From Desulfocurvus sp. (GTDB lineage Bacteria; Desulfobacterota; Desulfovibrionia; Desulfovibrionales; Desulfovibrionaceae): a DNA stretch of 64,000 nt. Location of the stretch: positions 1 to 64,000 of the forward strand of contig JAIMKR010000016.1 of NCBI GenBank assembly GCA_020692325.1. The letters are read 5' to 3'. Positions 12,466 to 60,020 of this stretch are shown here, piece by piece. A model generated the notes under the pieces. The model saw only the letters and a list, made by a program, of their open reading frames with translations. It did not search any database and was not told the DNA's origin. The number at the start of each line of letters is the position of its first letter. The first letter of the stretch is position 1. A program made the position numbers and the translations under genes.

Positions 12466-12479
<14 letters not shown>

Positions 12480-15201
12480 TATCATACGATTTTTCGTTTG
12501 TGCCTTCTTCGCCGCCGTGTTGGCCGTCATGGCCTCGCCCGGCAGGGACGAGGCCGCCGTGACCACCGCCCAAGAGGTTCGTGTGCTGGTGATGCCGTTC
12601 GACGTGAACGCCGGCGACGACCTCAAATACCTCCGCACCGGCCTGCGGGACATGCTTTCCGATCGCCTGCGCGGCGCCGGATTCAGTGTCGTCTCGCCCG
12701 CTGTCGCGGAACGGGTCCTGGCCGCCAAGGGCATTCGGCCCGACGCCCCGGGCGCGGCCAAACAGGCTGGCATGCTCACCAACGCCAAATTCGTCATCAC
12801 CGGTAGCTTCAGCATGCTGGGGCAAACCGTCTCCATCGACGCCCATGTGCTCGATCCCTTCGGCCTCAAGCAGCCCGTGCCCGTCTCGGTCAGCAAGGAT
12901 GGACTCATCAACCTCATGCCCGCCGTGGACGAGCTGATGGGCAAGATGCGCGGCGACCTGCTCGGGCTGGACCGCATCAGCGACATCGACGTGGAAGGCA
13001 CCGTGGCCCTCGATCGTGAGGTCGTGCTCATGCGCCTCACCACAAAGAAGGGCGATCCCCTCGACCTCAAGAGCATCAACACCGACGTGAAGACGGTGTT
13101 CGACCTGGGCTACTTCGATGACGTGAAGGCCATTCTGCGCGACACTTCCGCCGGCAAGAAGCTCGTCATCAAGGTGGTGGAGAAGCCGCGCATCCTGGCC
13201 ATCGGCGTCAAAGGCGCCAAGGCCATGAGTTCCGACGACATCCTCAAGGTGGCCAACTCCAAGAAGGGCGCGGTCCTCAACCCCAAGGTCCTCGCCGAGG
13301 ACATCGCCGCCATACGCGAGCTGTACCGCAAGGACGGCTACTATAACGCCAAGATCACCCACGAGATCGAGACAGCCGGCCAGGGCCAGGCGCGGCTCAA
13401 TTTCGTCGTCGATGAGGGCAAGAAGCTCTACGTCAAGAAGATCATCATCGAGGGCGCCAAGCAGGTCCCCGAGAGCGACCTCAAGGGCGAGCTGCAGCTC
13501 AAGGAGCGCGGCTGGCTCTCCTGGATCACCCAAAGTGGCGTCCTCAAGGAGGAGCTGCTCGAGCGCGATAGCGCCGCCCTGGCCGCGTACTACAACAACC
13601 GCGGCTTCATCGACGCCAAGGTCTCCGCGCCCGATGTCAAGATCGAGGACGACGGCATCGTCGTCACCTTCAAGGTGGAGGAGGGCAGCCGCTTCCGCGT
13701 CACCTCCGTGCACGTGGAGGGCGATCTCATCGCCGACGAGTCCAAGCTGCTCGATCTGACCAAGATGAAGGAGGCGGCCAAGAACAAGGACTACCTCGAC
13801 CGCTCCTTCGTGCGCGACGACATCAAAGCCCTCACCGACTATTACAACAACTTTGGCTATGCCTACGCCGAGACCAACGTGCGCATGAACGACCATCCCG
13901 AGGACAAGACCCTCGACATCGTCTACGTCATGCGCAAGTTGCAGCGGGTCCACATCCGCCGTCTGCTCGTGGAGGGCAACACCAAGACGCGCGACAACGT
14001 CATCCTGCGCGAAATGCGCTTGGCCGACGGCGACCTGTTCAACGGAGAGAAACTCAAGCGTTCCAGCGAGCGGCTGGACAAGCTGGGCTACTTCTCCAGT
14101 GTGGACATTGAACCTGTGCCCACGGGCAGCCCGGACCAGATGGATCTCAAAATCAAGGTGAAGGACAAGGACACCGGCAAGATCGGCGGCGGCGTGGGCT
14201 ACTCCACGTATGACTCCGTGTATCTGGCCGCGTCCATTGACGAGTCGAACATGTTTGGCGAGGGCTGGTCCACCGGCGTCCATGGACAGTGGGGCGCCAA
14301 GAAGACCGCCTACACCCTGACCGCCATGAACCCGCGCTGGGACGACACGAAGCTGGGTGTGGGCGGCCAGTTGTTCGACAAGCAGGAGGACTACGTCACC
14401 TTCAGCCGCGACTCCTATGGTGGCATCCTTAACTTCTCGTATCCCATCGGTGAGTACACCAGCCTGTTGTGGAATTACCGTCTGGAGCACTACACCATCT
14501 ACGACGTGGATAAGTCGGACGCCTCGGACATCATTCTCGACGCCAAAGGCGATCACTTGGCCAGCGTTCTTGGTGGCGGCGTCGTGCGCGACACCACCAA
14601 CGGTGGCGCCACCACCATGCCTACCCGCGGCACCATCAATTCCATCACTGGCACATACGGTGGCGGTATTCTCGGCGGCACCGACCACTTCGTCAAAGGC
14701 ATCTTCGACTCCGCGTTGTATCATCCGGTCATCGGCGACTTGGTGTTCCACTGGCACGGACAGGTCGGCGTGGTCGGGCAAAACGAGGGCGGCGAATCCA
14801 TTCCGCTTTCCGAACGTTTCGCTCTGGGCGGCAATGGCACGGTGCGCGGCTACTCCACCCGCAAAATCGCTCCGCTGAACGATTCCAACAAGGTGATGTA
14901 TGGCGACAAGGAAGCCTACACCAACCTTGAGCTCATCTACCCCTTGAGCAAGAAGATGGGCATCTATGGCTCCACCTTCTTCGATGCCGGCAACACGTGG
15001 AAGGAGGGCGAGATGTGGTTCAGCAATCCCTCACGTGGCGGTAAGGAAGGGCCGACCCTCGGCCTGTATAAGAGCGTCGGCGTCGGCCTGCTGTGGTACT
15101 CGCCCATGGGCCCGCTCAAGATCGAGTACGGGCATGGCTTGGACGACCTCTACGACAGCAGCAATAATAAGGTTGAGTTCAACATGGGGCAGTCCTTCTA
15201 G
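12466..15201 (+). CDS. bamA: Outer-membrane assembly factor BamA with TolB-like N-terminal domain
   Basis: 911 residues, about 100 longer than E. coli BamA. After a signal peptide (about 1-31), residues 40-135 form an extra domain: VLVMPFDVNAGDDLKYLRTG, then VVSP, then AKFVITGSFSMLGQTVSIDA. This is the pattern of the TolB-N/FlgO/CsgG-like family. POTRA repeats follow to about 520 (for example FDLGYFDDVKA). The barrel occupies the rest and ends in VEFNMGQSF, a terminal-Phe beta signal. BamA folds and inserts outer-membrane proteins. The extra domain may replace a periplasmic Bam partner (inference). Confidence 0.93.
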
Positions 15202-15210
15202 GCGGAACAG

Positions 15211-15228
15211 CCGGTCCATGCGGACCGG
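15211..15228. other. Intercistronic hairpin between bamA and skp-like gene
   Basis: A perfect 7-bp stem (CCGGTCC/GGACCGG) with an ATGC loop lies 10 nt after the bamA stop. No T run follows, so it is more likely an mRNA-stability or processing element than a full terminator. Confidence 0.35.
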
Positions 15229-15291
15229 GGACGGACGGACCCTTTTCGTTTGACGACACGGCTTCAACACACGTTGGAAGGAGATAGTCAC

Positions 15292-15822
15292 ATGCGTAAG
15301 TTTATGGCAGTCGCCCTGTTCCTCCTGCTTCTGCAGTCTTCCGCCGCGTTCGCGGCCGGACCCTCCAAGGTCGGCCTCTTCGATCCCGAGGAGGTCCTCA
15401 GAACGTCGGAGCCCGGCAAGGAGGCCATCAAGCAGTTTGAAGCCAAGATGAAGCCCGATAGCGAGCGCATCGAGAAGCAGCGCAAGGATTTCCTCAAAAT
15501 GCAGGAGGACTTCCAGAAGCAGGCTTTCGCGCTGGCGCCCGAAGCGCGGCAGGACAAGGAACGTGAGCTGCGCCGCAAGGAATTCGAACTCTCCGAGGCC
15601 GTGCGGATGTTCCAGAACGCCGCCAACCGCGAGAAGAGCATCAAGCTCAACGAGATCCTGAAGGTCCTCAACGCCAGCGTGTCCGATTACGCCAGCAAGA
15701 ATGGCTACTCGGTCGTCATGGCCAAGACCCAGGGCATCACCTACTACATCGATCCCAGCTGTGATATCACCAAGGCTGTCACCAGCGAGCTGAACAAGGC
15801 CTGGAAGACCCACAAGAAGTAG
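15292..15822 (+). CDS. Skp/OmpH-like periplasmic chaperone
   Basis: The start at 15292 follows GGAAGGAG; 176 residues. A signal peptide ends near residue 22 (SSAAFAAG). The rest starts with [20 protein letters not shown], the usual Skp opening, followed by a long charged coiled coil (about residues 50-125) and a C-terminal body strand region. Skp holds unfolded outer-membrane proteins in the periplasm and commonly lies between bamA and lpxD, as here. Confidence 0.88.
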
Positions 15823-15838
15823 CGGCGGGGTTCCTTCA

Positions 15839-16873
15839 ATGTTGTTGTCCGAAGTGGCCGGGAAGGTCGGACTGACCTTCTCCGGCCACGATCTTGAGAT
15901 TCGTGGTGTGAACACCCTGGTCTCGGCTGGGGAGGGGGACATCGCCCCGCTGCTTTCGCCCAAGCACCTGCGGGAATTCGTGGCCACGCGCGCCTCGGCC
16001 GTGCTGTGTGACGCGGCTCACGCCGATGCCGCTCCGGCGGGGCGGGCCTGCCTCGTCTCGGCGAATCCGAAGCTGGACTGGGCCCGCATCGTGACGCTTT
16101 TCGCCAAGCCGCAGGGCTGCTTGACCGGCGTGAGTTCGCAGGCGTTTGTCCACGCCGAGGCTGAACTCGGCGAGGGCGTCACGTTGTACCCCTTCGCCTT
16201 CATCGGCGCGCGGGCGCGCATCGGGCGGAACTCCACCATCTTCCCCGGTGTTTACGTTGGCGAAGACTGCGTGGTGGGCGAAAATGCTACCCTGTACCCC
16301 AACAGCGTGCTCATGGCCGGAACCATCCTGGGCGACCGCGTGACCATCCACGCGGGCACGGTGCTCGGCAGCGACGGCTATGGCTACGCCCAGTCGCCCG
16401 CCGGCCACGTGAAGATTCCTCAGGTCGGCCACGTGGAGATCGGCGACGACGTGGAGATCGGCGCCAACGCCGCCATCGACCGCGCCGCCCTGGAAGCCAC
16501 GCGAGTCGGGGCCGGGACCAAGATCGACAATCTCGTGCAGATCGCCCACAACGTGCAGGTGGGGCGGCATTGCCTCATCATCTCACAGGTGGGCGTCGCC
16601 GGCAGCACCAAGCTCGGCAACGGCGTGGTGCTGGCAGGTCAGGCTGGCTTGCGCGACAACATCACCCTGGGCGACGGCGTGCAGGTGGCCGCGCAAAGCG
16701 GCGTCGGCCAGGATTTGCCCGCGGGCTCGCTTGCCGGCGGCTCTCCCAGCATGGACGCGGCGACCTTCCTTAAGGTCGGTCTCACTTTGCCGAAGCTTCC
16801 GGAACTCATGCGCCGCGTGCGCCGTTTGGAAAAGGCCCTGGAGGCCGTCGAAAAGGAGGCTGGCCGTGAGTGA
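15839..16873 (+). CDS. lpxD: UDP-3-O-acylglucosamine N-acyltransferase
   Basis: Third step of lipid A synthesis: adds the N-linked hydroxyacyl chain from acyl-ACP. 344 residues. The N-terminal UDP-binding domain covers about 1-100. Left-handed beta-helix hexapeptide repeats follow ([34 protein letters not shown]), with the catalytic histidine in [11 protein letters not shown]-terminal helix closes the protein. It overlaps fabZ by 8 nt. Confidence 0.95.
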
Positions 16874-17321
16874 ACTGCCCATAGACATTCAGCGGATCAT
16901 GCAGATGCTGCCGCATCGCTATCCGTTTCTCATGGTTGACCGCGTGCTGGAGCTCACTCCCGGCGAGCACGTGAAGGCCTACAAGAACGTCACCATCAAC
17001 GAGAATTTCTTCATGGGGCACTTCCCCGGCCATCCCGTCATGCCCGGCGTGCTCATCATGGAGGCGTTGGCCCAGGCCGGCGGCATCTTCGTCATTGAGA
17101 ACATGGGGCCCTCGGCCAAGGACAAGCTGTTCCTCTTCACCGGCATCGACGGCGCGAAGTTCCGCCGGCAGGTTGTGCCCGGCGACCAGCTCATCCTCGA
17201 GGCCAGCGTCATCCGGCACAAGCTCAACATCTGGAAGATGCGCGGCACCGCCAGCGTCGACGGTCACGTCGTGGCCGAGGGCGTTTTCTCCGCCGCCGTC
17301 GTGGACAAGGAGAAGAACTAG
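16866..17321 (+). CDS. fabZ: 3-hydroxyacyl-ACP dehydratase FabZ
   Basis: The GTG at 16866 (VSELPIDIQ) gives 151 residues, the usual length. Hot-dog fold with the catalytic His in [13 protein letters not shown] and the Glu in [17 protein letters not shown] is near the N-terminus. It dehydrates 3-hydroxyacyl-ACP in fatty acid elongation and so competes with LpxA and LpxD for hydroxyacyl-ACP. It lies between their genes and its stop shares a base with the lpxA start. Confidence 0.96.
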
Positions 17322-18133
17322 TGGCCACCACCATCCACCCCACCGCCGTCGTTCATACAAAGGCCAAGCTCGGCGCGGACGTCTGCGTCGGCCCGTACTG
17401 CGTCGTCGAGGAGATCGTGGAAATAGGCGATGGCTGCCATCTCGACGCCTTCGCCCAGATCAAAAATTACACTAGGCTCGGGGCCAACAACCACGTGCAC
17501 TCCTACGCCTGTCTGGGCGACGCGCCCCAGCACCTGGGCTACAAGGGTGAGGAGACCTGGGTCCGCGTGGGCGAGCGCAACGACTTCCGCGAATTCGTCA
17601 CCGTGCACCGCGGCACGGCCCAGGGGCATCTGGAGACCGTCATCGGCTCCGACTGCCTGTTCATGGCCTACGCCCACGTGGCGCACGATTGCAGCATCGG
17701 CGATCACGTCACCGTGGCCAACGCCGTGAGCATGGCCGGTCATGTGGAGATCGGCGACTTCGCCATTGTTTCCGGCATGGCGGCGGTGCAGCAGTTCTCG
17801 CGCATCGGCGAGTACGCCTTCCTGGGCGGGCTTTCCGGCTACTCCAACGACGTTCCCCCCTACATGCTGGCCCAGGGCACGCGCGCCAAGCTGTACGGAC
17901 CCAACGTCATCGGCCTCAGGCGCCACGGCTTCACCACGCAGCAGGTGGCGGCCATCAAAAAAGCCTACCGCATCATCTTCCGCTCCGGCCTCATGCGCGA
18001 GGAGGCTTTGCAGAAGGCTTTGACCGAGTACCCCGATTCGCCGGAGGTGGCGCGTCTGGTCGAGTTCATGCGCGGCACCAAGCGTGGCATCATCTCCGAC
18101 GCCGGCCGCAGCTCCGGCGGCGGTGAGGACTAG
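17321..18133 (+). CDS. lpxA: UDP-N-acetylglucosamine O-acyltransferase
   Basis: First step of lipid A synthesis. GTG start at 17321, 270 residues. Hexapeptide-repeat beta helix in the first 190 residues, then a C-terminal helical domain (IGLRRHGFTTQQVAAIKKAYR). The catalytic histidine lies in MAYAHVAHDCSIGDH and HRGTAQG is the family loop. It is the last enzyme-coding gene before lpxI, with a 36-nt gap. Confidence 0.96.
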   Translation: MATTIHPTAVVHTKAKLGADVCVGPYCVVEEIVEIGDGCHLDAFAQIKNYTRLGANNHVHSYACLGDAPQHLGYKGEETWVRVGERNDFREFVTVHRGTAQGHLETVIGSDCLFMAYAHVAHDCSIGDHVTVANAVSMAGHVEIGDFAIVSGMAAVQQFSRIGEYAFLGGLSGYSNDVPPYMLAQGTRAKLYGPNVIGLRRHGFTTQQVAAIKKAYRIIFRSGLMREEALQKALTEYPDSPEVARLVEFMRGTKRGIISDAGRSSGGGED

Positions 18134-18169
18134 GCCCGACGGGGCCTTCACACCCACAACGGACAGCGC

Positions 18170-19009
18170 ATGGACGCGGGCTCCTCACCGAAGGTCGTCG
18201 GTCTCATCGCCGGCGGCCGCCAGTTCCCCGTGCTCGTGGCGCGGGGGGTCAAGGCTGCCGGGCACCGACTGGTCGTCGTCGGCTTCACCGGCCACACCAA
18301 CCCCGAGGTCTATCCACTGGCCGACGAGAAGCGCGAGCTCAAGCTCGGTCAGCTCTCGAAGATGATCGACTTCCTGAAGGAAACCGGCGTGCGGGAAGTG
18401 GTCATGGCCGGCACCATCCACAAGCCAGGCGTCATGGACTTCCGCCATTTCGACGCGCGCGCTGTCAAAATTCTCTTCTCCCTCAAGGCCAAGGGCGACG
18501 ATGTGCTTTTGCGCACGCTTTCCGCCGTGCTGGAAGGCGAGGGCATGACGCTCGCTCCGCCGCAGCGCTATGCCGAGGGACTGCTCACGCCCGTCGGCGT
18601 GCTCACGCGGCGCGCCCCCGCCGAGCGCGAGTGGATCGACTTGCGGCGCGGCGCGCGCTTGGCCCGCGAGGTCGGCCGGCTGGACATCGGCCAGTGCGTC
18701 GTTTTGCGCGAGGGCGTGGTGGCCGCCATCGAGGCTCTGGAGGGCACGGACGCGGCCATCGAGCGCGGCTGCCGGTTGGGCGGCCCCGGCTGCGTGGCGG
18801 TCAAGATGCTCAAGCCCGGTCAGGAGGAGCGTGTGGACCTGCCGAGCGTCGGCCCTGACACGGTGCGTCAGCTCGCGGCGGGTAAGGGCGCGGCCTTTGG
18901 CGTCGAGGCCGGGCGCAGTCTGTTCTTCGATCTGGAGGCGACTCTCGCCGCCGCGAATCGCGCCGGTATCGCCATCGTGGGCCTCACCGAGACCGACATG
19001 GTCGAATAG
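18170..19009 (+). CDS. lpxI: UDP-2,3-diacylglucosamine pyrophosphatase LpxI
   Basis: A 279-residue DUF1009-type protein. It begins with VGLIAGGRQFPVLVARGVK and contains VVMAGTIHKPGVMDFRHF, LEGEGMTLAPP and the C-terminal FGVEAGRSLFFDLE. LpxI cleaves UDP-2,3-diacylglucosamine to lipid X and replaces LpxH in many non-enteric bacteria. No LpxH-like metallophosphoesterase is seen in the window. Its place right after lpxA supports the call. Confidence 0.93.
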   Translation: MDAGSSPKVVGLIAGGRQFPVLVARGVKAAGHRLVVVGFTGHTNPEVYPLADEKRELKLGQLSKMIDFLKETGVREVVMAGTIHKPGVMDFRHFDARAVKILFSLKAKGDDVLLRTLSAVLEGEGMTLAPPQRYAEGLLTPVGVLTRRAPAEREWIDLRRGARLAREVGRLDIGQCVVLREGVVAAIEALEGTDAAIERGCRLGGPGCVAVKMLKPGQEERVDLPSVGPDTVRQLAAGKGAAFGVEAGRSLFFDLEATLAAANRAGIAIVGLTETDMVE

Positions 19010-40973: not shown

Positions 40974-41579
40974 TCACCCCTGTCCCAGTTCCATGACGGA
41001 TTCAAACAGGAAGTGGTCCACCACATGGCACAGCATGTGCCCGGCGGCGATATGCACCTCCTGAATGATGGCCGTGTCCTTGCTGGGCACACTCAGAATG
41101 TGGTCGCACAAGGGCTCCATCTCGCCGGTCATGGCGCCGCACATGCCTATGGTGACCAGCCCCCTGCTCTTGGCCTCGCGCAGGGCGGCGAGCACGTTGC
41201 GGCTCGAACCGCTGGTGCTGATGCCGATGAGGATGTCTCCCGCCAAGCCCAGCGCCTGCACCTGCTTCACGAACACCAGCTCGAAGCCGTAGTCGTTGCC
41301 GATGGCCGTGAGGATGGACGAATCCGTGGTCAGTGCTATGGCCGGCAGCGGGGGGCGCTCCAGCTTGAAGCGGTTGACGAACTCCGCGGCGAGGTGCTGG
41401 CAATCGGCGGCGCTGCCGCCGTTGCCGCAGAAAAGAACCTTGCCGCCCTCGGTGAGGGAGAGCGCCGTGATCCGGGCGATCTCGACAAGGTTTGGGGCGT
41501 TTTCTTCAAAAAAGGCTTCCCGGACGCGCAGCCCCTCGTGGGCGTGCTCCAGCACCTTTCGAATGGCTTTTTCCGACAT
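40974..41579 (-). CDS. gmhA: Sedoheptulose-7-phosphate isomerase
   Basis: 201 residues, SIS fold. FCGNGGSAADCQHLAAEFVNRF, TSGSSRNVLAAL and the late Q-E-V-H-I-A-A-G-H-M motif (metal and catalytic His/Glu) identify GmhA. It converts sedoheptulose 7-phosphate to D-glycero-D-manno-heptose 7-phosphate for LPS inner core. The matching bisphosphate phosphatase domain is at 57062-58324. No hldE or hldD is in the window. Confidence 0.93.
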   Translation of the reverse strand: MSEKAIRKVLEHAHEGLRVREAFFEENAPNLVEIARITALSLTEGGKVLFCGNGGSAADCQHLAAEFVNRFKLERPPLPAIALTTDSSILTAIGNDYGFELVFVKQVQALGLAGDILIGISTSGSSRNVLAALREAKSRGLVTIGMCGAMTGEMEPLCDHILSVPSKDTAIIQEVHIAAGHMLCHVVDHFLFESVMELGQG

Positions 41580-51795: not shown

Positions 51796-52710
51796 TTGAA
51801 GATCGAGGGCGCCGCCTCGAATCCACGCGAGACGCGTTACCTCTACGAGCCTTCGGGCCTGCTGCTGGCGGTGGATATGCCCGGTGGCCAGCGCATCGAA
51901 TACGCTTACGATTCCAATGGGCTGCGGCGTGAAAAACGCATCGACGGCGGGCTCGTGGAGGCCTTCGAGTGGCTGGACGCGCTGCGCTTGCGGGAATTTT
52001 TTGACGGCGAGCGCTGGTGGCGGCTGGTGTACGATCCGGCGCGCCCGGGCCGCACGCCCATCGGCGTGACCGACGGCGAGGCGTCCTTTCTCATTTCTTC
52101 CGATCACCTGGGCACGCCGCGCGCCCTTGCCGACATGGACGGAAACGTTGTACAGACGATGCGGTACGACGCCTTCGGCAACCCCCTTCGGGGGATTCGA
52201 GGGGTGCTCCGGCTTCCCCTCGGCTTCGCGGGGGGACTCCTCGACGCCGACACCGGACTGACGCGCTTCGTCTGGCGCGATTACGACGCCGACACGGGGC
52301 GTTTCACCGCGCTGGACCCCATGGGCGCGAAGGGCGGTGACAAGGACCTCTACGGCTACTGCGTCGATGACCCGGTCAACCGGCTGGATGTGTGGGGGCT
52401 GGAAAGCAAGACGGCTCAGAATGGCTCCACTGGGAACGAGGATGGTGATTCAGCCAAAACTGCCGGCACGCACATCGTTGGTAGTGGGATCAAAAGCGGG
52501 CTTTGGAATGCCGCCATGGGGTATGGCGCCAAAGCATACGGCGCAGAACGGTTGGCCGGAGCGGCAGTACGCGGAGTGTTGGGGCTCGGCACAGGGATGG
52601 CTCTGGCGACGGTTTTGGAATACCCACCGGTCAAGGAAAAAGTGGAAAAAGCTATCACTTGGTTTGAGGATAATTATAAGCCGACCGATGACGGAACGAT
52701 GCAGGACTGA
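51796..52710 (+). pseudogene. 5'-truncated RHS core with variable C-terminal tip
   Basis: 304 residues from a TTG without a ribosome site. It contains only the end of an RHS protein: YD repeats (RYLYEPSGLLLAVDMPGGQRIEYAYDSNG), the core DHLGTPRALADMDGNVV..YDAFGNPL, and DYDADTGRFTALDPMGAKGGDKDLYGYCVDDPVNRLDVWGLE, the end of the conserved core. The last about 100 residues are a unique tip, glycine-rich and hydrophobic in the middle, with lower GC. RHS proteins deliver C-terminal toxins. Thousands of N-terminal bases are missing, so it is probably not secreted as such. Confidence 0.8.
52271..52404 (+). repeat. RHS core-end repeat, copy 1
   Basis: 134 nt encoding the last about 44 residues of the RHS core. 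Its partner at 53000-53133 differs at 7 positions (about 95% identical). The copies flank the tip plus the small membrane-protein gene. Confidence 0.92.
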
Positions 52711-52713
52711 AGA

Positions 52714-52971
52714 ATGAAGAGCAGACCAACTTGCCCTAATTGTGGACAACCATTGGAGCAAGATCGACACAACCGCAGCGGCTGGATCAATCTCGCTGGG
52801 GCGTTGGTGTGGGCACTCTTCGCTTGGTGGGCTGGCGCAGCCTATCTTCTGCTGGCCGTTGGCGAACTCTGCCTTAGCCTTGTGCATTTTCTGCGACGCG
52901 AGACATACTACAATTGCGAACAATGCAAAAGTCGCTATGCGGCGAATGAGGTCGAGGGGGATGTCCACTGA
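52714..52971 (+). CDS. Small zinc-ribbon, two-helix membrane protein (possible immunity protein)
   Basis: 85 residues, starting 3 nt after the RHS tip. CPNCGQ near the N-terminus and CEQCKSRY near the C-terminus form a split zinc ribbon. Between them are one or two hydrophobic helices (about 27-61). GC content is well below that of the neighbours. Genes directly after RHS tips usually encode the immunity protein against the tip toxin; that role is inference here, with no family recognised. Confidence 0.6.
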   Translation: MKSRPTCPNCGQPLEQDRHNRSGWINLAGALVWALFAWWAGAAYLLLAVGELCLSLVHFLRRETYYNCEQCKSRYAANEVEGDVH

Positions 52972-52998
52972 GGATGGGGACTGAGGAATTCTTCCTAA

Positions 52999-53154
52999 CT
53001 CTGGCGCGATTACGACGCCGACACGGGGCGCTTCACCGCGCTGGACCCCATGGGCGCGAAGGGCGGCGACAAGGAACTCTACGGCTACTGCGTCGATGCC
53101 CCGGTCAACCGGCTGGACGCTTGGGGGCTGGAATGGATGGGGCGGGGAGCGTAA
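52999..53154 (+). pseudogene. Orphan RHS core fragment with a second tip
   Basis: The same frame as copy 1, from a stop codon just upstream (52996-52998). It encodes WRDYDADTGRFTALDPMGAK onward to NRLDAWGLE, followed by a tip of only six residues (WMGRGA) and a stop. It has no start or ribosome site of its own. This is the form of an RHS orphan tip: a displaced end with enough core homology for exchange. Confidence 0.8.
53000..53133 (+). repeat. RHS core-end repeat, copy 2
   Basis: Direct repeat of 52271-52404, 729 nt further on; the differences are mostly C/T changes plus a change of the last core residues (DVW to DAW, DDP to DAP). Confidence 0.92.
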
Positions 53155-53253
53155 CAACTCCTCGCCCCGTCGTCGTTTTGGGACGTGCACCGCTGGGGGG
53201 CGTCTTCTCCCTGGGGGATGCGCCCCATCCCGCCTCCCTATTCCCTCGCTTCG

Positions 53254-54480
53254 CTACTCGTAGCGCAGGGCGTCGATGGGGTTGAGGGCGGCGGCCTTGC
53301 GGGCGGGGTAGAAGCCGAAGAAGATGCCGATGGCGCTGGAGAAGGCCACGGCGAGCACGATGGCCTGCCCGGAGATGAGCGTGGCCCAGCCCAGGAAATG
53401 CGAGACGAGCAACGCTCCCGTGACGCCGAGGATGATGCCGATGACGCCGCCGAGCATGGTGAGCAGCACCGCCTCGGCCAGGAATTGCAGCAGGATGTCG
53501 CGTTCCTTGGCGCCGATGGCGATGCGGATGCCGATTTCCCGCGTGCGCTCGGTGACGGAGACGAGCATGATGTTCATGATGCCGATACCGCCCACGAGCA
53601 GCGAGATGGAGGCCACCGCGCCGAGCAGTACGCTCATGGTCTTGGCCGACTGCTGCGAGACGGCGAGGATTTCCGAGAGGTTGCGCACGTTGTAGTCGCG
53701 GTCCTTGGTGGCGCTCATGTGGTGGCGCTGGTCGAGCAGGGCGGTGATTTCGGTTTGCGCCTGGTCGATTCTGGACTCGTCGATGGCCTGGACGAGGGTG
53801 GGACCGACGGTGCCGGGGAAGGGATTGCCCAGGATTTTGCGCTGGGCGGTGCTGAAGGGCAGGAAGACCGCGTCGTCCTGATCCGTGCCCTGGGCGCTGC
53901 GGCCCTTGGCCTGCAATAGGCCGATGACCAGGAACGGCACGCCCTTGATGCGCACCTGCTTGCCCGTGGGGTCCTCGTCGCCGTAGAGGTTGGTGGCCAC
54001 GGTTTGGCCCAGCAGGCAGACCTTCTGCGCGGTGTCCACGTCGGAGGAGGTCATCTCGCGGCCGCTGGCGAGCTTCCATTCGCGAATCTGCAACAGATCG
54101 GGAGTGGTGCCGGTGAGTTCCGTGGACCAGTTCATGTTGCCGGCCACCAGCTGGGCGGTGCCGCGCAGCTCTGGGGCGATGCGCAGGACGGACGGGCATT
54201 CGGAGCGGATGGCCTTCACGTCCTCGATGGTCAGCGTGGGCTGTGAGCCCATGCCCGCGTGGACGCCGGAACTGGTGGTGCTGCCGGGCAGAATGAGCAG
54301 CAGATTGGAGCCCATGGTGGCGATCTGGTCGGAAATCTGTTTGGTCGCGCCGGAGCCGACGGCCACCATGACGATGACCGCGCCGATGCCGATCATGATG
54401 CCGAGCATGGTCAGAAACGAGCGCATGAGGTTCACGCGCAGAGCGCGCGCCGCGATGCGGATGGGCAGGATGATGTCCAT
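53254..54480 (-). CDS. MacB-type ABC transporter permease
   Basis: 408 residues, one N-terminal membrane segment (about 22-45), a periplasmic MacB_PCD domain (about 50-240) and three C-terminal segments from about 285. ALRVNLMRSFLTMLGIMIGIGAVIVMVAVGSG and GIGIMNIMLVSVTERTREIGIR are MacB/YknZ-like marks. The ATPase is a separate gene just upstream (2-nt gap), unlike fused MacB. With the adaptor it forms a tripartite exporter of peptides, macrolides or siderophores. Confidence 0.9.
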   Translation of the reverse strand: MDIILPIRIAARALRVNLMRSFLTMLGIMIGIGAVIVMVAVGSGATKQISDQIATMGSNLLLILPGSTTSSGVHAGMGSQPTLTIEDVKAIRSECPSVLRIAPELRGTAQLVAGNMNWSTELTGTTPDLLQIREWKLASGREMTSSDVDTAQKVCLLGQTVATNLYGDEDPTGKQVRIKGVPFLVIGLLQAKGRSAQGTDQDDAVFLPFSTAQRKILGNPFPGTVGPTLVQAIDESRIDQAQTEITALLDQRHHMSATKDRDYNVRNLSEILAVSQQSAKTMSVLLGAVASISLLVGGIGIMNIMLVSVTERTREIGIRIAIGAKERDILLQFLAEAVLLTMLGGVIGIILGVTGALLVSHFLGWATLISGQAIVLAVAFSSAIGIFFGFYPARKAAALNPIDALRYE

Positions 54481-54482
54481 TC

Positions 54483-55235
54483 CTAGGCCTCCCTGCGGGC
54501 GGAGAGCTCGGCGGCGAGTTCGGCGATGCGCTCACGCGAGGGCGCGGGGCGGGGTCCGGAGTCGTGGATGATGCGTCCGTCCTTGAAGGTGACCTGCCGG
54601 CCGGCGTGGGCGGCGATGTCCGGCTCGTGGGTGACCATGATGATGGTCTTGCCCTGGTCGTTCAGGCGTCTGAAGATATCCATGATCTCCTCGCTCATGC
54701 GCGAGTCCAGGTTGCCGGTGGGCTCGTCGGCCAGGATGAGGGCGGGATCGCCGGCGAGGGCGCGGGCGATGGCCACACGCTGCTGCTGGCCGCCGGAGAG
54801 CTGATTGGACATGTGTCCGGAGCGTTCGGCCAGCCCCACCATGGCCAGGGCGGCCAGGGCGCGCTCGTGGCGTTCCTTGGCGTCCACACGTCCGTAAACC
54901 AGCGGCAGCTCCACGTTTTCCACCGCGCTGGTGCGCGAGAGCAGATTGAAGCCCTGGAACACGAATCCCAGCTTCTTATTGCGGATCTCGGCCAGGGCGT
55001 TTTTGTCCAGCTTCTCCACGGCCACGCCGTCCAGGGCGTAGCGGCCGGAGGTGGGCCGGTCCAGGCAGCCGAGAATGTGCATGCAGGTGGACTTGCCCGA
55101 TCCGCTGGAGCCCATGATGGCCACGAATTCCCCGCTGCGGACGGAGAGGGAGACTCCCCGCAGGGCGTGCACCTCCTCGTCGCCCATCCTGTAGACCTTG
55201 GCCAGCTCCTCGATGCGCACGATTTCCTCGTTCAT
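54483..55235 (-). CDS. MacB-type ABC transporter ATPase
   Basis: 250 residues. Walker [10 protein letters not shown], signature [15 protein letters not shown], Walker [13 protein letters not shown]. About 20 residues beyond the usual end ([19 protein letters not shown]). Middle gene of the adaptor-ATPase-permease operon. Confidence 0.93.
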
Positions 55236-55255
55236 GGCGCTCCTCCCCCGCCGGC

Positions 55256-56473
55256 CTATCGCGGCCCCATGCCGGGTCCGCGCGAGCCGAAGGGACTGGA
55301 GGAGCCCTTGCCGGAGCCGCTTGCGCCGGAGTCCTCACCCAGCACGAGCAGGTCGCCCTGGGAAAGTCCGCTGGTCACCTCGGTCTCCTTGTCGTTGCCG
55401 ATGCCGAGGGTGACGATGACGGGCGTCGGCTTGCCGTCGCGCAGCACATAGACGTGCTTCCGCCCGGGTTCGAGCTTGGGCGGCGTTTGCTTCTGTGCGG
55501 CGGAGGGCCGGTAGCGCAGGGCGGCCGTGGGCATTTTGACGACCCCGGAGCGCTGGGCCGTGACGAAGGTCACGTTGGCCGTCATGCCCGGACGCAGGCG
55601 CTGATCCTTGTTGTCCACGGCGAGGATGACGCTGTACGTCACCACGTTGGAGGTGGTGGTGGCGGCGTTGCGCACCTGCGTCACCACGGCGGGGAAGGTC
55701 TGGTCGGGGTAGGCGTCCACGCTGAAGGTGGCGTTGCCGCCCTCGCGCACCTTGGCGATGTCCGACTCGTCCACCGTGGCGTTGATCTGCATTTTGGTCA
55801 GGTCCTGGGCGATGGTGAACAGCGTGGGAGTGGACATGCTGGCGGTGACGGTCTGGCCGACCTCGACCGCGCGGGAGATGACGATGCCGTTCACGGGAGA
55901 GATGATCGTGGTGTAGTTGAGGTTGGTGCGGGCCTGATCGTACGAGCCCAGCGTCTGGGCCACGGTGGCCTGTGCGGCGCGGAGAGCCGCCTTGGCCGAG
56001 GCCGCGGCTGTGGCGTAGGTGTCGTAGTCGCTCACGGCCACGGAGCCGTCCTTCACCAGGGCCTGATAGCGCTTGAGCGTGCGCTGGGCGTCCACCAGCG
56101 TCACCTTGGCCTTTTCCACGTTGGCTATGGCGTTCAGATAGCTGCCGCGCGTCTCCTCCACCTGGGCCTTGTAGGTGGCCGGGTCGATCTGCGCGATGAC
56201 CTGCCCCTGCGTGACCTTGGAGTTGTAGTCCGCGGAGAGGGACTTGATGATGCCGGAGACGGGCGTGCCCACGGTGACGGTGACGAGCGGGGCGATGCTG
56301 CCCGAGGACGTGACCGTCGCGCTGATGTCGCCGCGCGTCGCGGCCTGCGTGCGATATGTCACCTGCGCGCCGCCGCCGCGCGCATAGTGGTAGCCGAAGC
56401 CTGCCGCGATGAGGATGACGCAGGCGAGAACCGCCACGCCCGTCTTGCTCTTGAGCTTTGTGAGAACGTTCAA
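55256..56473 (-). CDS. MacA-type periplasmic adaptor protein
   Basis: The TTG at 56473 with CAGGAG upstream gives 405 residues; the longer open frame has no site. Membrane helix at about 11-29. The lipoyl-like half-motifs ([20 protein letters not shown] and [22 protein letters not shown]) surround a coiled-coil hairpin (about 110-190). A beta-barrel and a C-terminal membrane-proximal domain follow. The end is Ser/Gly-rich ([21 protein letters not shown]). Links the exporter to an outer-membrane channel not encoded here. Confidence 0.9.
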
Positions 56474-57061
56474 AGGGAACTCCTGACCGTTGGAATGCGC
56501 CAGCGCCCTGGCGGCGGCATGAAACCGACCGGTGTCGCCCGGGCGCGTCGCCCCGGCGTTCGGTGCTTCAAACATTTGTTTGCCAGATTCGTGCCAGGGG
56601 TTAGACGGCCCCAGACGCGCGAAGGTTACACCATGTTCGTTCCTCCTTCCTGCAATATCTTGCGCAAAAAATGGCAAACATTTGCACACAGGGGAGGGAG
56701 AACTGGACCGGTCCTGGCGTTTCCCCTTCGGCCTTGCGGCTCGTGGCCCGCGCGGTGGACGCCGTGGCATCGGAGAGCCCCCCCGCGCCGCCGCCCGCGC
56801 GTCGGCCTTCGCGGTGGACAAGATCGCGCGGTTCGTATCAAATGCATCCACGGCCATCCTCGCGGCGAAGCCCGGCTCCGCGTGTGAGGCCGCGTGCCCG
56901 CCGCATCGGGAAAACGATGGGCATCGTCCGGCTCCGATGTCGCTGCTGTCGCCGGTCTGGCTCCACGCCGGCATGGCCCACGTGCGCGCAGCGCGGGAGG
57001 CCTTGGGCCCGGGGGACCCCCTTTCCCCCAACCTCCAACCGCTTCGGCGACAAAGTATTCC
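56474..57061. promoter_or_regulatory. Long divergent leader region of the MacA-like and heptose genes
   Basis: 588 nt with no convincing gene. Two copies of CAAACATTTG lie at 56569-56578 and 56675-56684. On the minus strand, AAGGAGG followed 7 nt later by ATG-GTG-TAA (56634-56626) is an ideal start site for a two-codon ORF in the macA-like leader. The right half (56700-57000) is very GC-rich, with open frames in several directions but no recognisable product. Confidence 0.5.
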
Positions 57062-58324
57062 ATGCGCGACCTCAGCGACCTCACGGCTTATATCCTGGCG
57101 GACGGATTCGAAACGCCCCCCGCTCCCGTCGCGGCCGCCCGTCCCGTGGTCCTGGACGAGGTGCTTGGCCGGCCCTGCGTTTATTATTTTCTTGATCGCC
57201 TGGCCGACTGCGGCCTGCGGCGCGTGGTGTTTTGCGCCGGATGGACGGAGCGGCTGGAAGACCGCCTGGGCGGGAGCTATCGCGGCATGACGCTGTCCTA
57301 TTCCCGCGCGGATGAATCCCTGGGCTCCGGCGGAGCCCTGCGGCTGGCCCTGGAGCTGCATCCGGCGTCGCGCGCCCTGGTCCTCGACGGCGGGATCCTC
57401 GTGGAGGCGGATTGGCCCGCCTTCGCCGACTGGTTCGCCATGCGCCCCGAGGCCGGAGCCCTGCTGCTGGCCCGTGCGGACACCGCCGCGCGCCATGGCC
57501 GCGTGATAGTGGACGAAACGGGACGGGTGACGGCCCTTGCGGGGCAAGGTGGCGGCGGACCCGGGCTCGTTGGCGTCGGGGCGTGTCTGCTGCGGCCGGA
57601 AGACCTGGCCGGATTTTGGCCGGAGTCGCCGATCTCACTGGAACGGGACGTCCTTCCCCGGCTGGCGGCCTTGGGCCGGTTGTGCGCGCTGGAGACGCGG
57701 GCGCGTTTTCTGGACATGACCGCGCCGGAAGCCCTCGCGGCGGCCGGGCGCTTTCTTCTGCGTCGAGAGAACGCCCCCGACGGCGTGGCCGTGTTCCTCG
57801 ACCGCGACGGCACGCTCATCGAGGAGCGGCATTATCTGCACGACCCGGCCGGGGTGGCGCTGCTTCCCGGCGTCGCGGAGGGGCTGCGCCGTCTGCGGGA
57901 GCTGGGTTGCCTGCTGGTGTTGGTGAGCAACCAGTCCGGCGTGGGACGCGGCTATTTCGGCCGGGGCGACGTGGAGCGCGTGCATGGCCGGCTCATCGAA
58001 TTGTTGGCGTCGCGAGGCGCGTCGCTGGACGCCTTTTACGTCTGCCCGCACGCGCCGGGCGAGCAGTGCGACTGCCGCAAGCCCCTGCCCGGACTGGTGG
58101 AGCGCGCCTGCCGGGAGATCGGGCTGGACGCGGGGCGCGGCTTCGTCATCGGCGACAAGCCTTGCGACGTGGAACTCGCCCGGGCGGCGGGGGCCGACGG
58201 CATCCTGGTGCTGACCGGCTATGGCGCGCGGCACGAGGCGGAGGCCCGCGCCGGCGGAACGCTTGTGGCCCGCGATCTGGCCGAGGCGGCGGAGATCGTC
58301 GCGCGACTGCGCGCCCAGTCGTGA
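57062..58324 (+). CDS. Degenerate nucleotidyltransferase fused to D,D-heptose 1,7-bisphosphate phosphatase (GmhB)
   Basis: 420 residues. Residues 1-230 align by eye with HddC/RmlA-like sugar nucleotidyltransferases (VYYFLDRLADCGLRRVVFCAG, ESLGSGGALRLALE). The GGxGTRL loop is replaced by ADGFETPP, the Lys of PKPL is absent and the NGD metal motif reads LDGGI, so catalysis is doubtful. Residues 240-420 are an intact HAD phosphatase: D247-x-D249, SNQSGVGRGYF, zinc ligands C328, H330, C336, C338, and GDKPCDVELA. The phosphatase would follow gmhA in heptose synthesis. Confidence 0.85.
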   Translation: MRDLSDLTAYILADGFETPPAPVAAARPVVLDEVLGRPCVYYFLDRLADCGLRRVVFCAGWTERLEDRLGGSYRGMTLSYSRADESLGSGGALRLALELHPASRALVLDGGILVEADWPAFADWFAMRPEAGALLLARADTAARHGRVIVDETGRVTALAGQGGGGPGLVGVGACLLRPEDLAGFWPESPISLERDVLPRLAALGRLCALETRARFLDMTAPEALAAAGRFLLRRENAPDGVAVFLDRDGTLIEERHYLHDPAGVALLPGVAEGLRRLRELGCLLVLVSNQSGVGRGYFGRGDVERVHGRLIELLASRGASLDAFYVCPHAPGEQCDCRKPLPGLVERACREIGLDAGRGFVIGDKPCDVELARAAGADGILVLTGYGARHEAEARAGGTLVARDLAEAAEIVARLRAQS

Positions 58325-58766
58325 CACCCGGACAGTCGATTCGGCCCGGCCAGTGGGCTTGGCCGGCCCGGTTGCACAAAAAAATGGACATCACCGGCCG
58401 GCCCGGTCGATCATGGCCGTGTCCGCGCTGGACCGTCGGCGTCGCTCTGGGCGCACGGATGGAGACTCCACGCGGGGGAAGTCCCTCCCACCGGAATCGT
58501 CACCGCCACTTCCGGGAGGTCCTCCCCCTCCTTTCCGATCGCACGGCCGCCGCGTTTCCCCGGCCGCCTCGCGCCGTCGACACTCCTGGGTGAATTCTCT
58601 CATCCGCGCGACGCCCTGTCGGCCCTTGCGCGGTCTCCTCGAACGGTTTCCTCCCTCGCCGGCGACGTGGCCTGGCATCTCCGGTCGGCGGCGCTTCGCC
58701 GCCCCTCGCGTTTTGGGTGCCCTCCCCGGGGGGTGACAAGCGGCCGGGAAATTGCCACAATGGGGT
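58325..58766. other. Non-coding GC-rich gap
   Basis: 442 nt between the heptose gene and the ChrA-like gene. CCGGCC/GGCCGG arms near 58347-58368 may form a short hairpin. Open frames on both strands are Arg/Pro/Ala-rich and look like shadow. I see no promoter, RNA or gene that I can support. Confidence 0.5.
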
Positions 58767-60020
58767 ATGGACGCCATGAAACCGGGTTTCGCCGAATTGT
58801 TCCGTTTGGGATTGGGCCGCAAGGCCCGGCTGGCCGAGACGATGCTCGGCCGGGGCTGGGTCGATGCGGGCGACGCCGAGCGCGCGCGGGATATGTGCGC
58901 GCTTTTGCCGGGTGACACCGACCACATGCTGGCGGTGACGTTGGGCTGTCGCGCCGGCGGCGTGCCGGGCGGCTTCGCGGTCGGGCTGGGAGCCGTGCTG
59001 CCCATGCTTTTCGCGCTGCTCGCGGCGAGCGGGCTCGCGGCCGTGTTCGGCGGCATTCCGGCGGTGGCGGGCGCGCTGCGCGGTCTGGCCGGCGGAGCGT
59101 TGGCGATGATTCTCGTCGCGGCGTTCCGGCAGGCGCGCCGGGCGCTGACGCACCCCGTCCTGTACGGTTTCGCGGCGGCGAGTCTGCTCATGGGCTTCGG
59201 TCTGCATCTGAAATTCTATGGCATCGTCATTGTGGCGGTGCTGATCGGCATCTGGATGGGGCAGAACCGGCCGGACATCTTCCAGGCGCGGATGCCGGAC
59301 GCGGCGACGCTCCGGGATGACGCGGCCGCTCTTCCCGTGCGCGGCGGCTGGCGGCGGGCCGGTCGGCTCGGACTGTGGTTCGGCGCGGCGTGGCTGCTCG
59401 CCGGTCTGGGCGCGCGGTTTGTGGATGGGCCGGACGGGCTGGCCCCGCATCTGCTCAATTTCGGTGTGCGCGCGGGCTTCTTCGCTTTTGGCGGGGCGTA
59501 TGGCGCGCTCTCGTTCTTTGGTGACATGAGCCAGCGCTTCAGCTGGGGCGGACAGGGGCCGCTGGCGCTGGGCCTGGGATTGGCCGGACTGATGCCGGGG
59601 CCGCTTTTGTTGGCCGCGCAGCATGGGGCCTTCGTGGAAAGCGCCACGCACGCGGGGGCGCTGCCGTCGCTCGCCGCCGGGTGCCTGGGCGCGCTGTGCA
59701 TGAGCTTCGGCCTGTTTCTGCCGGGCTTCTACCTGCCGCTCACGCTGGCTCCGCGCATGGAAGCAGTGCTCGCCAAGGGCTGGCTGCGCGCGGCCGTGAC
59801 CGGAGTGGACGCGGCCATGGTTGGCGTGCTGTGCAAGATCGGGCTGGTGTTCGGCGCGGCGGTGCTGTGGCCGGCCGGGTTCGCCGTCGGTCCTTTGGAC
59901 GCGCTGCCGCTGGTGGCGGGCGTGGTCTGCCTGCCATTCGCGCTGCGGCGTGGCGCGGTTGCGCGGATCGGCCTCGCGGCCGCCGGCGTCATCGGCGTGA
60001 TCTGGGGCTTTCTCGCCTAG
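58767..60020 (+). CDS. ChrA-like chromate-transporter family protein
   Basis: The ATG at 58767 gives 417 residues (a TTG at 58752 is possible). Two halves of about five to six membrane segments. The second half keeps FAFGGAYGALSFFGDMSQRFSW and LAGLMPGPLLLAAQHGAFV, ChrA marks. The first half shows CALLPGDTDHMLAVTLGCRAGGVPGG in the right place but its FGGP motif is lost (LGLGRKARLAETML). Chromate export or another anion is possible; substrate uncertain because of this divergence. Confidence 0.7.
   Translation: MDAMKPGFAELFRLGLGRKARLAETMLGRGWVDAGDAERARDMCALLPGDTDHMLAVTLGCRAGGVPGGFAVGLGAVLPMLFALLAASGLAAVFGGIPAVAGALRGLAGGALAMILVAAFRQARRALTHPVLYGFAAASLLMGFGLHLKFYGIVIVAVLIGIWMGQNRPDIFQARMPDAATLRDDAAALPVRGGWRRAGRLGLWFGAAWLLAGLGARFVDGPDGLAPHLLNFGVRAGFFAFGGAYGALSFFGDMSQRFSWGGQGPLALGLGLAGLMPGPLLLAAQHGAFVESATHAGALPSLAAGCLGALCMSFGLFLPGFYLPLTLAPRMEAVLAKGWLRAAVTGVDAAMVGVLCKIGLVFGAAVLWPAGFAVGPLDALPLVAGVVCLPFALRRGAVARIGLAAAGVIGVIWGFLA

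Follow-up and report, generated by a model that had tools for sequence, protein, structure and literature searches.

A single GmhB phosphatase, Cj1152, serves both the GDP-heptose and the ADP-heptose pathways of C. jejuni (PMC10680097). The passages of that article dealing with Cj1152 place its gene in the ADP-heptose cluster and mention no fusion (PMC10680097), whereas the GmhB considered here is fused. In the PDB, the GmhB proteins of E. coli (2gmw/3l8e) and B. bronchiseptica (3l8h) are among those closest to it in sequence, and they come first when its structural model is compared; unlike them, it is preceded by about 240 residues of a dead nucleotidyltransferase (NTase). This N-terminal half aligns along its full length with HddC (Cj1423 of C. 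jejuni; model NF049965), but the signature, the lysine and the metal Asp of that enzyme are missing.

The gene lies at 57062..58324 (+) of the window, i.e. the whole stretch of 64,000 nucleotides of Desulfocurvus sp. DNA that was analysed, and encodes an HddC-GmhB fusion of 420 amino acids plus stop. Residues 1-236 (57062..57769, +) form a catalytically degenerate HddC-like NTase half and residues 243-415 (57788..58306, +) an intact GmhB half of the zinc-containing HAD-IIIA type. Translation starts at the ATG at 57062, in agreement with the relatives: the N-terminus is MRDLSDLTAYIL in the window protein and MPGFDAVTAYIL in theirs. The frame has no internal stop or frameshift and is collinear with that of the relatives, which rules out recoding or a sequencing error.

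The 11 closest fusions with intact NTase motifs come from nine congeners and from one member each of a second (G028) and a third genus (G020). Aligned with these, the former nucleotide-binding signature (57095..57121, +) has changed from LAGGFGTRL (LAGG[FL]GTRL across all 11) to LADGFETPP. The signature lysine of PK is replaced by Val29 (57146..57148, +), giving PV, and NGD has become DGG (57386..57394, +) with loss of the metal Asp. FxEKG reads LAGQG and FLDIGTP reads FLDMTAP. The roles of these residues are presumably those of their counterparts in sugar-nucleotide pyrophosphorylases. The preliminary description had already reported the loss of GGxGTRL, the substrate Lys and NGD, and DGFETPP, PV and DGG indeed stand in their place. 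Only 57 of the 85 columns invariant in the 11 intact relatives are retained; when each intact relative is submitted to the same test in turn, 85/85 to 85/88 are kept, and 85/106 for G020, from another genus. The motif loss thus exceeds chance. Model NF049965 gives 34 bits for the window NTase half vs 114 for the intact relative G168, and a Pfam scan of the isolated half matched no family. An alignment with HddC-GmhB fusions, which had been proposed as a check, hence sets a diverged half against 11 intact ones.

The half might still transfer nucleotides by means of other residues. Asp218, the second of the two metal-site Asp (57713..57715, +), and the GSGGA motif are retained, which speaks for such a reading. 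However, only 3/8 core positions are kept, and no replacement Lys, Arg or Asp is aligned at the lost sites. Moreover, with hddA absent (see below), the enzyme would lack its usual substrate. We therefore regard residual transfer as highly improbable.

The GmhB half presents a different picture. All 15 checked HAD and zinc residues are present (DxD, [ST]NQ, the CxH..CxC zinc site, RK and GDxxxD), confirming that this domain is intact. They include the DRD motif with the HAD nucleophile and acid/base, D247 and D249 (57800..57808, +), and the zinc ligands C328, H330, C336 and C338 (58043..58075, +). This half retains 64 of the 70 columns invariant in the 11 relatives. It scores 134.5 bits against TIGR01656 (cut-off 84) and 150.5 bits against NCBIfam PRK08942, below the equivalog cut-off of 178; the intact relative G168 likewise falls below it (148.8 bits). 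HisB-N and GmhB are the closest solved structures found by sequence search.

Residues 10-224 of the NTase half still match solved NTases by sequence, and 75 of the 80 all-hydrophobic columns remain hydrophobic in the window protein, in keeping with the earlier view that the fold-defining segments have been kept. An AF2 model built from 15 sequences has high confidence in the GmhB half and fair quality at residues 1-125; at residues 125-217 its pLDDT is <50, too weak for the pocket to be judged. In a Foldseek search with this model GmhB structures come first, and the N-terminal part matches MurU, the model being poor at 125-217. The earlier proposal of a pseudo-enzyme beside an intact phosphatase is supported: catalytic residues have been lost from a half whose sequence suggests descent from an active family.

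The surroundings of the gene differ from those of its relatives. In each of the 11 intact cases an hddA relative lies beside the fusion. The adjoining genes encode an SDR protein and a kinase of the GHMP type, whose best named model is HddA, at 143 bits (cut-off 600). Genes for PDH-E1-like, GDP-fucose-synthase-like, aminotransferase and radical-SAM proteins are often found in the same operon. hddA is the GDP-heptose kinase gene, and the cluster is a predicted GDP-heptose-type surface-sugar operon. None of these heptose-operon neighbours is found beside the window fusion within the 64 kb. Upstream are a MacB permease, an ABC ATPase and an HlyD-type adaptor (53254..57547, -), the true start of the adaptor probably lying well short of the ORF end at 57547. 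Downstream is a member of the chromate-transporter family (58752..60020, +), and no hddA. An Rhs remnant occupies 51796-53285. It comprises an RHS core end, with Pfam RHS and teneurin-shell matches below cut-off, and a small gene (52714-52971) that matches no Pfam family; a second copy of the core end, 134 bases at 53000-53133, is 95% identical to 52271-52404, and the whole looks like displaced Rhs tips. Besides gmhA and the fusion, the window carries an uninterrupted group of genes for lipid A synthesis and outer-membrane assembly, those of BamA, LpxD, LpxA and LpxI (12466-19009).

The genus sample comprises 15 genomes including that of the window (G000), which is 100% complete in 27 contigs. 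HddA is found in 10 of the 15, namely the nine with an intact fusion and G182, and is absent from the window genome, where a search of the whole assembly at E<=1e-5 returned no match. The site that holds the operon in several congeners (tpiA-secG-tRNA-Leu) is empty in the window genome, where the next conserved gene comes right after the tRNA gene. A second HddC was not detected there either: an intact HddC half used as query retrieves nothing but the fusion and RmlA, and the other NTases above the PF00483 cut-off are four, RmlA, GalU, GlmU and ManC. The enzymes of the ADP-heptose pathway are nevertheless kept. gmhA, for the sedoheptulose-7-phosphate isomerase that catalyses the first step of heptose synthesis, lies at 40974..41579 (-), 15.5 kb from the fusion and in the same window, as had been noted; its product is the best match to the GmhA models at 206 bits, just under their curated cut-offs. 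HldA (352.5 bits, cut-off 345), HldC (182.2, cut-off 181.5) and HldD (374, cut-off 274.6) all exceed theirs. The question raised earlier, whether another hldE or hddC exists in the genome, is thus answered by split hldA and hldC genes and no further hddC. A search with the whole fusion protein gave the fusion as single match, i.e. no second GmhB in this genome. Since the GDP-heptose branch is gone, the ADP-heptose enzymes are kept and this is the only GmhB detected, the most fitting reading of the gene is that of a putative GmhB carrying a retired NTase half. Loss of the GDP-heptose branch would be a simpler cause than the regulation or tethering first suggested. Three other genomes of the genus (G153, G161 and G189, 73-86% complete) have no GmhB match, although each of them has HldD and two of them, G153 and G161, also have HldC. 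The phosphatase may be dispensable in these, may have been replaced, or its sequence may be unassembled.

A profile search of 288 genomes of the family (Desulfovibrionaceae), which required near full-length matches and may therefore miss very degenerate halves, detected at least 41 fusions. Seven are NTase-dead and two phosphatase-dead, while none of those found is dead in both halves. The NTase core scores of the seven are 3/8 (G000), 1/8 (G182), 1/8 (G010), 2/8 (G051), 2/8 (G043), 3/8 (G164) and 5/8 (G056). The remaining 34 keep 7-8 of the 8 positions, apart from G107 with 6, where two positions lie beyond the contig end. On the phosphatase tree at least five changes are needed to account for the NTase deaths. 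In the mirror cases, G131a and G160 (L205, L216), the NTase core is 8/8, hddA is kept, the HAD catalytic residues are lost, and each genome has a separate intact GmhB. All three states occur in one small clade: G049 has both halves intact, the NTase is dead in G056 and the phosphatase in G131a. In G000, G182, G164, G010 and G043 the fused GmhB seems to be the sole GmhB-like match; G051 and G056 show a second match, which may or may not be another GmhB. In L228 and L229 (G067, G170) and in L224 (G043) the fused GmhB has lost zinc ligands, C-Y-S-D or C-N-C-D replacing C-H-C-C, and has kept the HAD catalytic residues.

Some fusion candidates were set aside. G103 proved to be two adjacent genes. 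Among more distant genomes, L149 and L150 hold fusion-like long frames whose upstream half looks like another enzyme, presumably glycosyltransferase-9-like, and most other such frames seem to result from GC-rich DNA being read out of frame. These heptose enzymes are fused in other ways elsewhere: a reverse-order GmhB-HddC fusion is found in Planctomycetota, and an HddC half continuing in frame into a GmhA-like half in Chloroflexi (L038:287-1837 and L039:6422-7909, respectively).

NTase death goes with the absence of the kinase gene. Flanks were examined for 39 of the at least 41 fusions (G131b and G107b were left out): hddA is nearby in none of the seven NTase-dead cases vs 26 of 32 NTase-intact ones (Fisher p=1.1e-4) and, outside the window's clade, in 0/5 vs 15/21 (p=0.007), p being only a guide because the genomes are related and the flanks span 5 to 19 kb each (64 kb for the window). 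Six of the 32 intact fusions have no hddA in the flank (G198, G107, G194, G119, G078 and G166); the first three are situated on short contigs or where a contig ends, and G119 has K to E.

The second case in the genus, G182, carries a still more degenerate fusion, located after secG, with no hddA adjoining. Its genome has in addition a complete operon of the GDP-heptose type (L067:1025-7663, G182:C97) with a stand-alone intact HddC and an HddA. A single loss common to G000 and G182 is not rejected by the trees of the two domains (AU p 0.20 and 0.40). It is rejected by a five-gene neighbour tree (AU p=4e-6), which groups G182 with G134 and G110, on the assumption that the fusion followed those genes.

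Selection was estimated with a home-made MG94-type codon model on fixed topologies, and all the omega values below are to be read in the light of saturation (total length about 6). G010 and G051, two congeners of another genus than the window's, are both dead; 14 of 19 conserved columns are lost in both, with the same replacement at 6, and the loss is probably largely shared. Their NTase omega is nonetheless 0.168, well below 1 (2dlnL 64.5), with 0.088 for GmhB; intact pairs in the window's clade give NTase values of 0.09-0.15. Purifying selection on this dead half may reflect a structural or a regulatory role.

A contrary reading is that the dead half is without any role and drifts neutrally, its frame being kept only because stops would remove the phosphatase. 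The window branch is indeed relaxed, its NTase omega of 0.41 (a fit from a single optimiser start that averages the time before and after the loss) exceeding the background of 0.142 (2dlnL 13.6), whereas GmhB, at 0.234 vs 0.135, is not significantly so (2dlnL 3.4). The G164 branch (0.485, likewise from a single start) is indistinguishable from 1, and G182 looks closer to plain decay, with 63/80 hydrophobic columns inside the range of neutral simulations (56-67), apart from an excess of catalytic loss (3/16 kept, 6-11 expected). Against pure drift, the window branch is also below 1 (2dlnL 10.6), the dead pair is constrained, and none of the seven dead halves is truncated, in a survey that needed near full-length matches. 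Moreover, when neutral decay is simulated to the identity of the window protein, 65-73 of 80 hydrophobic and 9-14 of 16 catalytic columns are kept, while the protein itself keeps 75 and 6. The core is hence preserved better, and the catalytic sites worse, than by chance. Neutral drift of a useless half seems to us conceivable but doubtful.

Taken together, the gene content, motif loss, recurrence and selection estimates drawn from the sequences make it likely, in our opinion, that a bifunctional enzyme was pruned in place after loss of the GDP-heptose branch. The ancestor would have been an HddC guanylyltransferase fused to a GmhB 7-phosphatase, encoded with hddA in a GDP-heptose operon, and its GmhB half would also have served the ADP-heptose pathway of the LPS core. 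In the lineage of the window the GDP-heptose branch would then have been lost, with hddA gone, the usual site empty and the fusion alone elsewhere, and the NTase half would subsequently have lost its catalytic residues. We infer that the GmhB half was kept to dephosphorylate the heptose-1,7-bisphosphate that GmhA and HldA supply, its product being used by HldC and HldD, the five activities together yielding ADP-heptose for LPS. The dead half would probably persist by folding with the phosphatase and supporting it.

Alternatively, the dead half might bind a nucleotide or nucleotide sugar and tune the phosphatase, as the non-catalytic paralogue GMPPA does for GMPPB (PMC11228364). An apparently kept fold, purifying selection in one dead pair and the GSGGA motif and second metal Asp of the window protein are all compatible with this. 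Yet the nucleotide-binding signature itself is gone, and the replacements differ between dead lineages (at the shared lost columns G000 and G182 agree at 1/6), which argues against a common new binding motif. A regulatory pseudo-enzyme is thus quite unlikely.

If it was pruned in place, this two-domain enzyme was trimmed after loss of a pathway by switching a domain off rather than cutting it out. Annotators should be warned that the gene would be called a bifunctional guanylyltransferase/phosphatase, although only the phosphatase is expected to work. At least five losses of the NTase half and two of the phosphatase half provide replicate cases for the question of scaffold versus regulator. 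A broader and rather unlikely proposal is that either half of the fusion can die when it is unneeded or supplied elsewhere, the corpse being then selected as a scaffold or ligand sensor. If true, fused pseudo-enzymes would offer a repeated, reciprocal natural experiment, and the dead NTase would possibly sense nucleotide sugars and set the ADP-heptose flux.

Neither pseudo-enzymes nor fused enzymes with a dead half are new as kinds. Some hexokinases likewise have a half that has lost catalysis; these consist of tandem copies of one domain, whereas HddC-GmhB joins two different enzymes. In GMPPA, as in the window protein, a dead sugar-nucleotide pyrophosphorylase domain has been kept in evolution; as the article presents it, however, GMPPA forms a subunit of its own, which binds GDP-mannose and acts as inhibitor of an active NTase (PMC11228364), whereas the present dead domain has a phosphatase as its fusion partner. 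No description of an HddC-GmhB fusion with a dead half was found in openly licensed PMC articles. Measured against that literature, what appears new is that either HddC-GmhB half has died, repeatedly and in reciprocal fashion, a pattern tied to the neighbouring kinase gene.
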